Shown in pieces: positions 24,313 through 30,372 of a DNA stretch of 32,288 nucleotides. A program made the translations under genes and the position numbers. The notes under the pieces are model-generated. The model saw nothing but the letters and a program-made list of their open reading frames with translations. It made no database searches and was not told the origin of the DNA. The stretch is taken from positions 1 to 32,288 of IMG/VR virus record IMGVR_UViG_3300042391_000602. One strand, given 5' to 3'. The number at the start of each line of letters is the position of its first letter. Position 1 is the first letter of the stretch. The DNA is from a virus.

Positions 24313-24495
24313 TTAAAAAGGGCATTTAGTTTTTAGTTTATTTTCTTTAATTGTTTTCCAGTCTTTTTTTAGTTTTTCTTTTACTGCCAAACGGATAAAA
24401 TGGTTAACATTTATACCATAATCTTCTAAGGTTTCAAAGGCTTTTTTTTGAGTTTCTGTAAAACCTATAACCTTTTTATATTTAAGTAGTTGCAT
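24313..24495 (-). CDS. Small ribbon-helix-helix-like protein (60 aa)
   Basis: In MQLLKYKKVIGFTETQKKAF, the strand-like start is followed by a helix with LEDYGINVNHFIRLAVKEK, a pattern close to the second helix of ribbon-helix-helix DNA-binding proteins (NxFIRxAxxEK). It is Lys-rich. It is the first non-cassette gene downstream of the cassette array. A regulatory role is inferred. Confidence 0.55.
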   Translation of the reverse strand: MQLLKYKKVIGFTETQKKAFETLEDYGINVNHFIRLAVKEKLKKDWKTIKENKLKTKCPF

Positions 24496-24530
24496 TGTTA
24501 TTGATATTAGTTTGTTAGTTTTAGCGAGTT

Positions 24531-24759
24531 GTTAGTGGCAATGTTACAGCATCGACAAATGTGGGTAATTGACACAATACTCAAAGTCTTCTATACACCA
24601 AATTCCATCATCACCATCTAAAGCAAAAGCTCTTTGACTACCAAAATTTGGTAAGTCTTTAGAAATAGTTTTTTCTTTCCCAGCGTTGAATAAATAGTCT
24701 TTTGTATTATTTTTGATTTTAACTTTCATTCCTACTTGAAGAAAAACACTGCCACTAAC
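24531..24759 (-). mobile_element. Integron-type gene cassette D
   Basis: On the plus strand GTTAGTGGCA (24531-24540) and TGCCACTAAC (24750-24759) are exact reverse complements that bound one minus-strand gene. In cassette orientation the unit starts with GTTAGTGGCA and ends with TGCCACTAAC, as integron cassettes start with GTTRRRY and end in the complementary core site. The attC beyond this end appears truncated: no further GTT core follows it. Confidence 0.65.
24544..24729 (-). CDS. Cassette gene D, hypothetical (61 aa)
   Basis: I prefer ATG at 24729 (MKVKIKNNTKDYLFNAGKEK). A longer frame from 24810 would add 27 residues (including PPLQQTAVSGS) that are just a translation of the attC-like site. 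The protein is a small beta-rich acidic domain with ALDGDDGIWCIEDFEYC. It lies inside a 10-bp inverted-repeat cassette. Function unknown, as is usual for cassette proteins. Confidence 0.6.
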   Translation of the reverse strand: MKVKIKNNTKDYLFNAGKEKTISKDLPNFGSQRAFALDGDDGIWCIEDFEYCVNYPHLSML

Positions 24760-24888
24760 AGCCGTTTGCTGCAATGGCGGGTTCTGTGGTAAATTGTTAG
24801 TTTCTTGCATTTTATTAAATTTTGTGGTTAATGAAAAGTCAGTGCATTTAAGCCACCACTGACAGCAAGTGGCAAAGCGTTATAGGTA
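24750..24888 (-). repeat. attC-like site between cassettes C and D
   Basis: In cassette orientation it runs from TACCTATAAC (24888-24879) to GTTAGTGGCA (24759-24750). Near the ends TAAC pairs with GTTA, and TTGCTG with CAGCAA, like R and L boxes of a long attC with a large variable loop. It also contains a hairpin with seven pairs (arms GTCAGTG and CACTGAC, followed by TTTT). The left core is complementary to the start of its own cassette (C), not to the right core, as in real integron sites. Confidence 0.6.
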
Positions 24889-25176
24889 AGTTGCGTATCA
24901 TTTAGAAACATTTTTTATATCCATAATTAATTTTTTATAGTTATCTGAAAAGCAAGTGTCAGATATGTTTCCACTATATTTCCCTAACCTAAAAAACTCA
25001 TGTGCAACACAATATAATAATTCATCATTTTTACCTATTAATTCTAATAAGTTTTCATATTTCTTTTTAGGTGTATTACCTTCTAATTTTTCTAAAATAT
25101 CATTTTCGTAATTTGTCATATTATTTATTTTTTAAATTGTGTATTAATTAAACATTCATTACAACCTACCTATAAC
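24879..25176 (-). mobile_element. Integron-type gene cassette C
   Basis: Exact 10-bp inverted repeats GTTATAGGTA (24879-24888) and TACCTATAAC (25167-25176) on the plus strand enclose a single minus-strand gene. The repeats differ from those of cassettes B and D, so each cassette carries its own matched pair. This is expected if each unit once existed as a circle with one attC. Confidence 0.7.
24898..25119 (-). CDS. Cassette gene C, hypothetical (73 aa)
   Basis: The product MTNYENDILEKLEGNTPKKK, then YENLLELIGKNDELLYCVAH and FFRLGKYSGN, is a small helical protein without recognised domain. The start lies about 50 bp inside the cassette and the stop (TGA) is ten bases before the downstream core site. 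The compact one-gene unit is typical of integron cassettes. It is probably transcribed from the phage early promoter near 26000. Confidence 0.65.
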   Translation of the reverse strand: MTNYENDILEKLEGNTPKKKYENLLELIGKNDELLYCVAHEFFRLGKYSGNISDTCFSDNYKKLIMDIKNVSK

Positions 25177-25227
25177 AGCACCTAATAAACAGCAAGCCGA
25201 TTTATTAGCTGCAAAACGTTATGTGCC
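25167..25227 (-). repeat. attC-like site between cassettes B and C (best preserved)
   Basis: The site is 61 bp. In cassette orientation the R box ATAAC/GTTAT forms the outer stem, an unpaired spacer follows (GTTTTGCAG opposite GTGCT), then an eight-pair L box (CTAATAAA with TTTATTAG), and a short loop TCGGCTTGCTG. This is the layout of integron attC sites (R, unpaired central spacer, L, variable terminal structure), with length close to the short attC class. Confidence 0.7.
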
Positions 25228-25380
25228 ATTTTAGGACACCCTTGCAATCTCATACACTTCATCAATTAAATGGTAGTGAGTTGCAAATTTCACCATTGCA
25301 TAATTTAAACTACTTGCTTCAATATGTACCATTAAATCTTTATCCATACTTCTGTATTGGAATAAAAAACGGCACATAAC
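25218..25380 (-). mobile_element. Integron-type gene cassette B
   Basis: Exact 10-bp inverted repeats GTTATGTGCC (25218-25227) and GGCACATAAC (25371-25380) on the plus strand enclose one minus-strand gene. At 163 bp it is the smallest unit, with its reading frame starting at, or just after, the core site. Confidence 0.68.
25231..25377 (-). CDS. Cassette gene B, hypothetical (48 aa)
   Basis: The ATG at 25377 lies in the cassette's core site; a second ATG at 25347 would give 38 residues beginning MDKDLMVHIEASSLNY. An upstream start at 25437 would add residues encoded by the attC-like site, which is less plausible. The product ends HLIDEVYEIARVS and is a small alpha/beta protein without known domain. 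Stop TAA lies three bases from the downstream core site. Confidence 0.5.
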   Translation of the reverse strand: MCRFLFQYRSMDKDLMVHIEASSLNYAMVKFATHYHLIDEVYEIARVS

Positions 25381-25508
25381 AGCACCTAAAAAAGATGGCT
25401 TGCTTTGTTCTTCTAATAAACTTTTGTCTGTGTTCATAATTTTGTTCTTTTAATTAAGTTTCGAGGTATTAATCAGCCACCTCGTTTAGCTGCAAAACGT
25501 TATATTTT
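25371..25508 (-). repeat. attC-like site between cassette A and B
   Basis: In cassette orientation it begins with ATATAAC and GTTTTGCAG, shared over 18 bases with the site at 25167-25227, and ends with TTTAG, GTGCT, GTTATGTGCC. The R box ATAAC/GTTAT and the spacers GTTTTGCAG and GTGCT are the same as in that site. The L box (CTAAA with TTTAG) differs but is still complementary. An inner hairpin (arms CGAGGT and ACCTCG) fills the loop. Confidence 0.65.
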
Positions 25509-25592
25509 ACTTTTAGCTTTTAAATATTTAATATAAAGTTCAAAGTTAAAATTATCCCACCACTGGGCCTTTATTATTGTTGCGATTTCCAT
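25500..25592 (-). CDS. Small hypothetical protein (30 aa), possible remnant of cassette A
   Basis: The frame MEIATIIKAQWWDNFNFELY ends with TAA that is part of the attC core ATATAAC, as is common for cassette genes. It overlaps the upstream frame by 19 bp. The matching cassette start (GTTATATTTT in gene orientation) is not found upstream, so the 5' end of this cassette has been lost or has been joined to phage sequence. Very short, so moderate confidence only. Confidence 0.45.
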   Translation of the reverse strand: MEIATIIKAQWWDNFNFELYIKYLKAKSKI

Positions 25593-28035: not shown

Positions 28036-30372
28036 ATGAATGTAACAATATTTAAAAACTTACACAATACCAATACCCCTTTTATTAAGGATATTGATTT
28101 TATTTTAAATAGAATTAAAGTTGGTAAATCTAAATTGATAGTTGATGAAATTAGAAAGCAGCCAACTAAAGAATTAGCAGATGAAATAAAGGCAACTCTT
28201 CCGGCAATTTGTTTTTGTGGAATATTTATAAAAAGAGCAGATAGTTCCATTACGGAACATAGTGGGTTAGTTTGCCTTGACTTTGATAAATACGAATCAG
28301 TAAAATTATTAGATGCTGATTTAAAAATATTAAAAAAAGATAAATATACCTTTGCTATGTTTATTAGTCCAAGTGGAATAGGTATAAAGCTACTTGTTAA
28401 AATTCCTAAGGATATTGAGAATCATAAAAAGTATTTTGATGCTTTAGAGAAATATTATGATAATACTCACTTTGATACTACTTCTAAAAATATAAGCAGA
28501 ATTTGTTTTGAAAGCTACGATCCAAATATTTATATTAATAAAGATAGTGAATTATGGACTGAAAAGATTGAGGATGAACAATTTGATTATAGGTATCATG
28601 CGCCAACTATTAAATTAGAGAATGAAAGCGAAATTATAAAGCGTTTATGGTCCTGGTTTAATAAATCTTATTCAATGGCGAAAGGTAGCAGAAACCATAA
28701 CTTATTTATATTGGTATCGGCATTTAGTGATTATGGAATTAGTGAATCGGAAACTAACCGATTTTGTCACCAATTTATTACAAATGATTTTACTGCTAAC
28801 GAAATTGATAAAGTTATACGCTCAGCTTATTCAAAATGTAAAGCTAATTTTGGAATGAAGTTTTTTGAAGATAGTGAAACTTTAAAACAAATATCTATTA
28901 AATTAAAGGCAGGAACTACGATTAAAGAAATTAAGGAATCAATGCCAAATGTGGATGAAAGGGTATTGAATGAAATTAAAGAAAATGTAACTATAAATGA
29001 TTTTTGGGTACATACTAAAAAAGGTATTAAGATTGAGAATTATCTTTATAAGCTATGGTTAGAATCAAATGGTTTTTATAAATATTACCCTGAGAACTCT
29101 GAATCATTTATATTTGTTAAGGTTACTAATAATTTAATTGATAACACAAACGAAGTTAAGATTAAAGATTATGTATTAAATGAATTGTTAAAGCAAGGTG
29201 AGGATAAAGTTTATGAGTACATGGCAGGAACTCAAAAGTATTTTAAAGATGACTACCTTAATATATTAAGCGAATCAAATATATTTTTTAAAGAAGATAC
29301 TATTGATACTGGTTATATTTATTTTAGGAATGCTGCTGTAAAGGTTACAAATGATAATATTGAATTAATTGATTATTTAGAATTGGATGGTTTTGTATGG
29401 AAAAAGCACATTATTGATTTTGATTTTAAGATTACTGATAATATTAATTGTGACTTTAGTAAATTTATAGAATTAATATCAAATAAGAATACTGACAAAG
29501 TAAACTCAATTACTTCAACTATTGGTTATTTAATGCACTCTTTTAAAACTTCAGCAAATAATAAAGCTATTATATTAAACGATGAAACGATTAGCGAGAA
29601 TCCAAATGGCGGCAGCGGTAAGGGTATTTTTTGGAATGCACTAAGCAAAGTAAAAAGGGTTTCAGATATTAATGGTAAATCATTTAGTTTTGAAAAATCA
29701 TTCCCTTATCAAACAGTTTCAGCAGATACTCAGATATTAGTATTTGACGATGTACAAAAAAACTTTAAATTTGAAAATCTATTTAGCGTAATTACTGAGG
29801 GTATAACTTTAGAGAAAAAGAATAAGGATGCAATTAAGATACCAGTTAGCCGAAGTCCTAAAATAATTATAACAACTAATTATACTGTTGGTGGGGTTGG
29901 TGGATCATTTGAACGTAGAAAGTGGGAAATTGAGTTTAGTAGTTATTTTAGTCACAAACACACTCCCCTTAATGAGTTTGGTAGAATGTTCTTTGATGAA
30001 TGGAATAATAACGAATGGCTTAACTTTTATAATTACATGGTTAAATGCATGCAGATGTATTTAGTTAATGGATTGGTAAGTTATGAGTATGTGAACTTAG
30101 AAATAAGAAAGTACATTAAAGAAACTTCATTTGAATTTTATGAGTGGGCTAATAAAGATACTTTAAAAGAAAATGAAAGATTAAATAAAAATATGATCTA
30201 TAATATATTTATTGATGAATATCCTGACTTTAAAAAATATAACCTATCAACTAAGCGGTTTTGGGGGTGGGTTGAGAAATATTGTATATTTAACAAAATT
30301 GAATTAACTAAGGGCCAGGATAGTATGGGACAAAGATATATTGAATTAATAACTGATAATAATACATTTTAA
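28036..30372 (+). CDS. Primase-helicase (PrimPol-like N-terminus, SF3-type ATPase)
   Basis: The 778-residue start at ATG 28036 follows the terminator-like leader; an upstream in-frame TTG would read through the hairpin. Residues 75-165 carry the archaeo-eukaryotic primase-type signature of the BT4734/VirE-N family (VCLDFDKYE, SPSGIGIK, SRICFESYDP). A helical primase C-terminal region follows (about 215-275). Residues 525-530 (GGSGKG) are Walker A, 567-572 (ILVFDD) Walker B, and TTNY at 613 a sensor. RRKW at 627-630 suits the arginine finger. It should unwind the origin and synthesise primers. Confidence 0.9.
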   Translation: MNVTIFKNLHNTNTPFIKDIDFILNRIKVGKSKLIVDEIRKQPTKELADEIKATLPAICFCGIFIKRADSSITEHSGLVCLDFDKYESVKLLDADLKILKKDKYTFAMFISPSGIGIKLLVKIPKDIENHKKYFDALEKYYDNTHFDTTSKNISRICFESYDPNIYINKDSELWTEKIEDEQFDYRYHAPTIKLENESEIIKRLWSWFNKSYSMAKGSRNHNLFILVSAFSDYGISESETNRFCHQFITNDFTANEIDKVIRSAYSKCKANFGMKFFEDSETLKQISIKLKAGTTIKEIKESMPNVDERVLNEIKENVTINDFWVHTKKGIKIENYLYKLWLESNGFYKYYPENSESFIFVKVTNNLIDNTNEVKIKDYVLNELLKQGEDKVYEYMAGTQKYFKDDYLNILSESNIFFKEDTIDTGYIYFRNAAVKVTNDNIELIDYLELDGFVWKKHIIDFDFKITDNINCDFSKFIELISNKNTDKVNSITSTIGYLMHSFKTSANNKAIILNDETISENPNGGSGKGIFWNALSKVKRVSDINGKSFSFEKSFPYQTVSADTQILVFDDVQKNFKFENLFSVITEGITLEKKNKDAIKIPVSRSPKIIITTNYTVGGVGGSFERRKWEIEFSSYFSHKHTPLNEFGRMFFDEWNNNEWLNFYNYMVKCMQMYLVNGLVSYEYVNLEIRKYIKETSFEFYEWANKDTLKENERLNKNMIYNIFIDEYPDFKKYNLSTKRFWGWVEKYCIFNKIELTKGQDSMGQRYIELITDNNTF

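Follow-up and report, generated by a model that had tools for sequence, protein, structure and literature searches.

A probable integron-type cassette array in a Bacteroidota-type phage, with cassette genes antisense to their attC sites

Comparison of the genome of a Bacteroidota-type phage with its relatives indicates that one of its regions is very probably an integron-type cassette array, in which three single-gene cassettes, strung together by attC sites, are docked at an attI-like site at position 24531 and moved by site-specific recombination. The region lies in a stretch of 32,288 nucleotides (positions 1 to 32,288 of IMG/VR virus record IMGVR_UViG_3300042391_000602; hereafter the window), which contains portal, terminase, capsid and ERF genes and a BT4734-like primase domain. 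A first-pass annotation, made from the letters of the window, had proposed an integron-type array in a phage with no integrase in view, a proposal supported by cassette-precise changes at the G/TT boundaries (here and below, the slash marks the crossover point).

Results

The window array and its attC sites

The genes had been described as bounded by cassette-specific 10-bp inverted repeats, and all six arms proved exact on checking the window sequence. The spacers said to be common to two of the sites, GTTTTGCAG and GTGCT (minus-strand reading), were likewise present. The features of the region are as follows.

24313–24495, minus strand: small conserved phage gene (phrog_25647, 60 aa) that comes immediately after the attI-like site when read in the direction of the genes; it anchors the dock in relatives
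24515–24534, plus strand: attI-like docking site TTAGTTTTAGCGAGTTG/TTA, putative crossover between G 24531 and TT 24532; about 20 phage contexts have it, and the cassettes that follow mostly differ
24532–24879, plus strand (the attC polarity): cassette 3, 348 bp, from the TT after the attI-like site to the G of its own attC, with G/TT boundaries
24531 and 24750: exact 10-bp R pair of cassette 3, GTTAGTGGCA and TGCCACTAAC
24544–24810, minus strand: cassette 3 gene, 88 aa if started within attC and shorter from an internal ATG (MKVKIKN), antisense to attC, no Pfam family
24750–24888, plus strand: attC of cassette 3, long hairpin class, R'' at 24750–24759 and R' at 24879–24888
24880–25218, plus strand: cassette 2, 339 bp
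24879 and 25167: exact 10-bp R pair of cassette 2, GTTATAGGTA and TACCTATAAC
24898–25119, minus strand: cassette 2 gene, 73 aa, antisense to attC, no Pfam family
25167–25227, plus strand: attC of cassette 2, short hairpin composed of R'' TACCTATAAC, AGCAC, L'' CTAATAAA, L' TTTATTAG, CTGCAAAAC and R' GTTATGTGCC; its loop also occurs in other phages
25219–25499, plus strand: cassette 1, 281 bp
25218 and 25371: exact 10-bp R pair of cassette 1, GTTATGTGCC and GGCACATAAC
25231–25437, minus strand: cassette 1 gene, 68 aa, antisense to attC; the attC hairpin encodes its start codon and its leader, MNTDKSLLEEQSKPSFLGAV
25371–25508, plus strand: attC of cassette 1, long hairpin class, about 121 nt, with the G of R' at 25499
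25500–25590, minus strand: right flank, a short gene native to the phage that ends right against the last attC and has homologues in three other phages (L015, L014 and L006)

No tyrosine recombinase was detected in the window even at E ≤ 10. Rfam scans gave no match, and no convincing similarity to cultured phages or plasmids emerged when the attC and cassette sequences were searched with BLAST.

Sites were sought more widely with a home-made structural attC finder, which was checked against shuffles and against chromosomal IntI arrays. In a 19-kb phage region, one strand carried up to 16 matches and the opposite strand had none, and shuffled sequence yielded about 0.1 matches per 18-kb strand in the same search; at the level of the family, chance is excluded as the origin of the repeats. 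The proposed rule that each site matches the start of its own cassette was borne out in 214 unique viral cassettes, whose R'' arms agreed with their own cassette start at 4.51 of 6 variable positions versus 2.33 for the start of the next cassette; shuffled starts gave 2.19 (s.d. 0.08, maximum 2.48 in 2000). This rule ruled out simple palindromic or terminator repeats. The inner L-box pairs co-varied significantly across the phage family (1.97 of 3 observed versus 0.86 in shuffles).

The predicted fold of R box, unpaired spacer and L box held for the short site of the window. The bottom strand of the short site (25168–25223) folds into R stem, spacer and L stem at −9.4 kcal/mol (z = −3.87), and its top strand forms the inner stem alone, at −5.1 kcal/mol. 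By contrast, the two long sites of the window fold no better than shuffles. Among 74 unique phage hairpins, the third pair inward of CTAA/TTAG was unpaired in about 82%, the flanking pairs being mostly formed, a conserved mismatch that is reminiscent of the extrahelical bases of attC. The phage hairpins proved too diverse for MAFFT alignment when a covariance model was attempted. They showed no excess of the Bacteroidota promoter motif TAnnTTTG, which occurred at 0.31 per kb in the hairpins versus 0.70 in cassette bodies.

The motif TTAGCTGCAAAACGTTA, which comprises the inner L box, spacer and R' box, was found in at least 119 viral contig stretches, mostly within the arrangement R''-AGCAC-CTAA...TTAG-CTGCAAAAC-GTTA. 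A stricter two-sided pattern, with loops of 8–38 nt, matched only 3 of 84,980 cellular genomes, one of them through a contig whose genes resemble the phage ones. The attC family is thus frequent among phages and, by the stricter pattern, almost missing from cellular genomes.

Comparison of cassettes between phages

Cassette 1 (25219–25499) recurs with a single mismatch in three other phages (L099, L155 and L191). Identity extends 2 nt past its left end and 3–4 nt past its right end and then stops, the flanks being different. In L099 and L155 the cassette sits exactly at G/TT before a neighbour that in L191 and L136 follows another cassette. Comparison of related phages at the GTT boundaries shows cassettes gained, lost and replaced precisely at G/TT. 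The suggestion that such a phage serves as a vehicle for cassette spread is also supported, because integrase-bearing phages contain cassette 1 with one mismatch.

The way in which hairpins are shared allowed each attC to be assigned to a cassette. When the right-hand cassette was shared and the left-hand one differed, the hairpin differed in all 14 cases (identity 0.14–0.66). When the left body was shared and the right neighbour differed, the hairpin was alike in 9 of 14 pairs (0.78–1.0) and differed in the remaining five (0.43–0.72). From this pattern it follows that attC belongs to the left-hand cassette on the plus strand, with the crossover at the right-hand GTT.

These comparisons leave very little room for the explanation that the repeats are dispersed palindromes or terminators of fortuitous likeness to attC, the mosaicism being produced by homologous recombination. 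Repeats could indeed act as homologous recombination tracts, and the long sites are not exceptionally stable folds. However, R'' pairs with the start of its own cassette rather than with that of its neighbour, breakpoints fall within a few bases of G/TT with dissimilar hairpins on both sides, sites are restricted to one strand and the hairpin travels one-sidedly. The same holds for a generic dispersed REP family, which fails as an explanation in that the repeats are bound to the boundaries of gene units.

Orientation of the cassette genes

The polarity of attC is that of the plus strand, so that the window genes run antisense to their own sites, contrary to the orientation implied by the first-pass annotation. 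Orientation was scored by the longest ORF in 212 unique two-site phage cassettes, and this ORF was antisense to attC in 202, sense in 6 and missing in 4. By contrast, chromosomal controls recovered by the same search gave 42 sense and 5 antisense cassettes, with 15 of 15 sense in arrays beside insert-less recombinases and 27 of 32 beside canonical IntI. Location of attC at the 3' end of the gene, a trait of complete integrons, is thus not the rule in the phage cassettes. That attC polarity might follow the genes was considered and ruled out by the hairpin-sharing test and by the comparison of L099 with L191. Among host arrays, a single IntI-linked chromosomal array (L362) was seen with an antisense longest ORF in several cassettes (four of seven).

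The start codon was located within the attC hairpin in 68 cassettes and in the body in 138, and the leader MNTDKSLLEEQSKPSFLGAV of cassette 1 recurs, slightly altered, ahead of other bodies. The cultured phage P12002L shows the same backward arrangement: its genes at this place are on the minus strand, and the good attC sites between them, at 30053 and 38933, are on the plus strand.

attI-like docking sites

The sequence TTAGTYTTAGCGAGTWG/TTA lies to the left of the window array and is common to relatives, in which different cassettes follow it. Scanning the collection for this window-type site gave 21 stretches; about 20 of the 24 attI contexts listed look genuine and three look like chance matches. 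Conservation stays near 2 bits as far as the G and drops sharply beyond TTA, and a weak GCAAT-like motif is present in the cassette starts that follow the site. In integrase-bearing phages a second attI-like type, TACATATARTAG/TTA, separates the start codon of the integrase from the first cassette (the integrase-linked site is also written TACATATAATAG/TTA), and practically the same integrase and site precede three different first cassettes. With varying first cassettes behind each of them, the two attI-like sites have the behaviour expected of candidate first-insertion sites. The proposal that the phage captured or carries cassettes needs amending on one point: because the array stands at a conserved attI-like site, this is a dedicated docking place rather than a spot of accidental capture.

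Two phages (L230 and L236) carry as the first unit past attI a tiny ORF-less cassette, made of TTATGGCACATTAAAACGATGCCATAAC plus a hairpin. The sequence CATTAAAACGA recurs as the loop of many attC hairpins.

Recombinases linked to the arrays

A PF00589 recombinase was present in 9 of 50 records with these sites or close relatives. The enzymes are mostly 267–289 aa long and are encoded beside or near the array, including in phages of 76, 170 and 310 kb. Integrase, attI and attC array occur together in many related phages, one of them of 310 kb. None of the 17 records with the window-type attI had this recombinase, many of these records, like many IMG/VR contigs, being fragments. A search with one phage recombinase retrieved 30 loci, and in more than 20 of them, wherever an array was detectable, the array lay 5' of the integrase gene on the opposite strand.

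The catalytic residues R, K, H, R, H and Y are complete and invariant in 17 phage recombinases. In NCBIfam the phage enzymes scored below the cut-off for XerA, XerC/D and IntI; the IntI model TIGR02249 aligned to them only in two pieces, below its cut-off, and its matches in the first MAGs were split and below cut-off as well. In a phylogenetic tree they formed one clade (98/85), apart from IntI (100/100), with one chromosomal row inside. The spacing between ArgI and HxxR is 86–94 aa in the phage enzymes versus 133 in IntI1, and the IntI insert (I2, roughly 42 residues) is therefore absent. Their closest solved relatives are XerA-like enzymes (4a8e and 5hxy), and no linked IntI with the IntI-specific insert was found in the window or its relatives. 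IntI had been expected as the enzyme; the recombinase linked to related arrays is instead XerA/IntI-related and lacks the IntI insert. From its linkage to the arrays, we infer that the phage recombinase acts on attC.

The linked recombinase might instead serve phage integration or dimer resolution, the arrays being driven by host IntI or by another enzyme. This seems rather unlikely, although the recombinase lacks the insert held responsible for recognition of attC hairpins, is related to XerA-like enzymes and has similar chromosomal genes without an adjoining array in 34 of 40 loci. Against it, the array is consistently 5' of the gene with a conserved attI-like site in between, an identical enzyme is followed by different first cassettes across records, and the genes adjoin arrays inside large phage genomes.

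More improbable is that the region is an ordinary CALIN, that is, host bacterial cassettes captured by a phage and moved by a canonical IntI of the host, with no system proper to phages. Such clusters are known from phages, and IntI1 accepts phage attC sites (PMC9892861). Moreover, the window itself has no integrase, and canonical IntI scored above the NCBIfam cut-off in 84 of 297 sampled genomes of the phylum (inferred) of a Flavobacteriales MAG (G001). An ordinary CALIN is at odds with the orientation fixed for each cassette, antisense by 202 to 6 in phages and sense by 42 to 5 in chromosomes, with a site family common in phages and, under the stricter pattern, almost absent from cellular genomes, and with attI-like sites and a recombinase clade apart from IntI that are the phages' own.

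Some chromosomal loci deserve mention. The chromosomal recombinase within the phage clade (L317) stands beside the enzyme of the 310-kb phage (L220) and is possibly from a prophage. In five other loci (L302, L319, L320, L321 and L322), attC arrays with sense genes lie 3' of an insert-less IntI-like recombinase; three of the chromosomal insert-less enzymes with arrays branch near the base of IntI in the tree. The survey of canonical IntI includes L361, L365, L368 and L369, several of its genomes having attC arrays. With IntegronFinder 2.0, Salinibacter was the sole source of a complete integron reported within Bacteroidetes proper (PMC9024848).

Cassette cargo

The cargo is rich in DNA methyltransferases. 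N6_N4_Mtase was found in 10 of 59 larger cassette proteins, which also included Dam, MT-A70, Mom, YopX, RNA ligase and MazG-like matches. Among 33 smaller cassette proteins, a set that includes the three window genes, two had a Pfam match, and no Pfam family was found for those three. Given the methyltransferase matches, a counter-restriction role is likely for part of the cargo. The largest phage array observed here, in a 170-kb phage (L228 and L224), spans nearly 40 kb, with more than 25 attC sites and many methyltransferase cassettes.

Discussion

Comparison between phage sequences demonstrates the units, their boundaries, their polarity and the attI-like dock, together with a cassette pool that integrase-less and recombinase-bearing phages have in common. 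Each cassette can be pictured as a unit running from TT through the R'' hairpin to G, which would exit and enter by site-specific recombination between G and TT. Because the window has no integrase, recombination there would have to take place in trans, presumably by a XerA/IntI-like tyrosine recombinase supplied by co-infecting phages or by the host and using the folded bottom strand of attC in single-stranded form. Transcription of the backward genes would come from a phage operon reading through the array toward attI; with the genes in this direction, a promoter at the attI end (Pc) would be useless. For about a third of the cassette genes, attC would itself provide the start codon. Phages are likely to benefit through a fast exchange among them of counter-defence genes, above all DNA methyltransferases.

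A broader reading, which we favour slightly, is that Bacteroidota phages run an integron class of their own, with a non-IntI, insert-less recombinase and backward cassettes whose attC acts as a 5' leader and sometimes provides the start codon, and with integrase-less phages drawing on the pool in trans. Integrons are known mainly as bacterial platforms, and the few phage cases so far have been interpreted as captured fragments (PMC9892861). In the present arrays, a family of cassettes common among phages goes together with docks and a recombinase lineage of their own and a differing gene orientation. If correct, phages would hold a market for counter-defence genes at their own level, which would explain the quick trade of methyltransferases and other small genes among them. 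In published work, IntI is described as having arrived at single-strand recombination by gaining the I2 helix, and integrons have been suggested, speculatively, to be of viral origin (PMC7790495). If the phage recombinase acts on attC without an I2 helix, this would challenge that route and make a pre-IntI or viral stage directly testable; the phage system might then be a living relative of a pre-IntI stage, with a bearing on the viral origin of integrons.

Among known systems, phage CALINs, including that of Polaribacter phage P12002L, share with the present arrays the integrase-less attC clusters in lytic phages and the methyltransferase cassettes. Qi et al. (2023) screened 10,705 phage genomes and found 17 CALINs, and 3 complete integrons in temperate phages; they showed that IntI1 recombined phage attC sites, P12002L_attC2 on the bottom strand, and attributed the 'divergent directions' in P12002L to mosaicism (PMC9892861). 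Unlike the present analysis, that study described no phage attI, phage-specific recombinase lineage or consistent backward orientation (PMC9892861), and no description of a backward-facing phage integron was found in the open-licence PubMed Central literature. Xer/XerA recombinases and Xer-exploiting elements resemble the phage system in that XerA-like enzymes are the closest solved relatives and lack the IntI insert; they differ in that the phage genes are not known to act on dif sites and adjoin attI-like sites and attC arrays.

Integrons with IntI, such as class 1 integrons, Vibrio superintegrons and those of Treponema, have in common with the phage arrays attC hairpins with R''/R' and L''/L' boxes, the G/TT crossover, one attC per single-gene cassette and an attI-like site with a tyrosine recombinase beside it; classical arrays beside true IntI in chromosomes were recovered by the same attC finder. 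Whereas typical integrons diverge from attI, in the phages both the integrase gene, leading away from attI, and the cassette genes, leading toward it, point the same way (int← attI ←genes). Treponema integrons, with their atypical integrase direction, differ from this in that int and genes both point away through attI (PMC3607928). Two features set the phage arrays apart from known integrons, namely cassette genes that face against the polarity of attC and a linked recombinase that is not IntI and lacks its insert.
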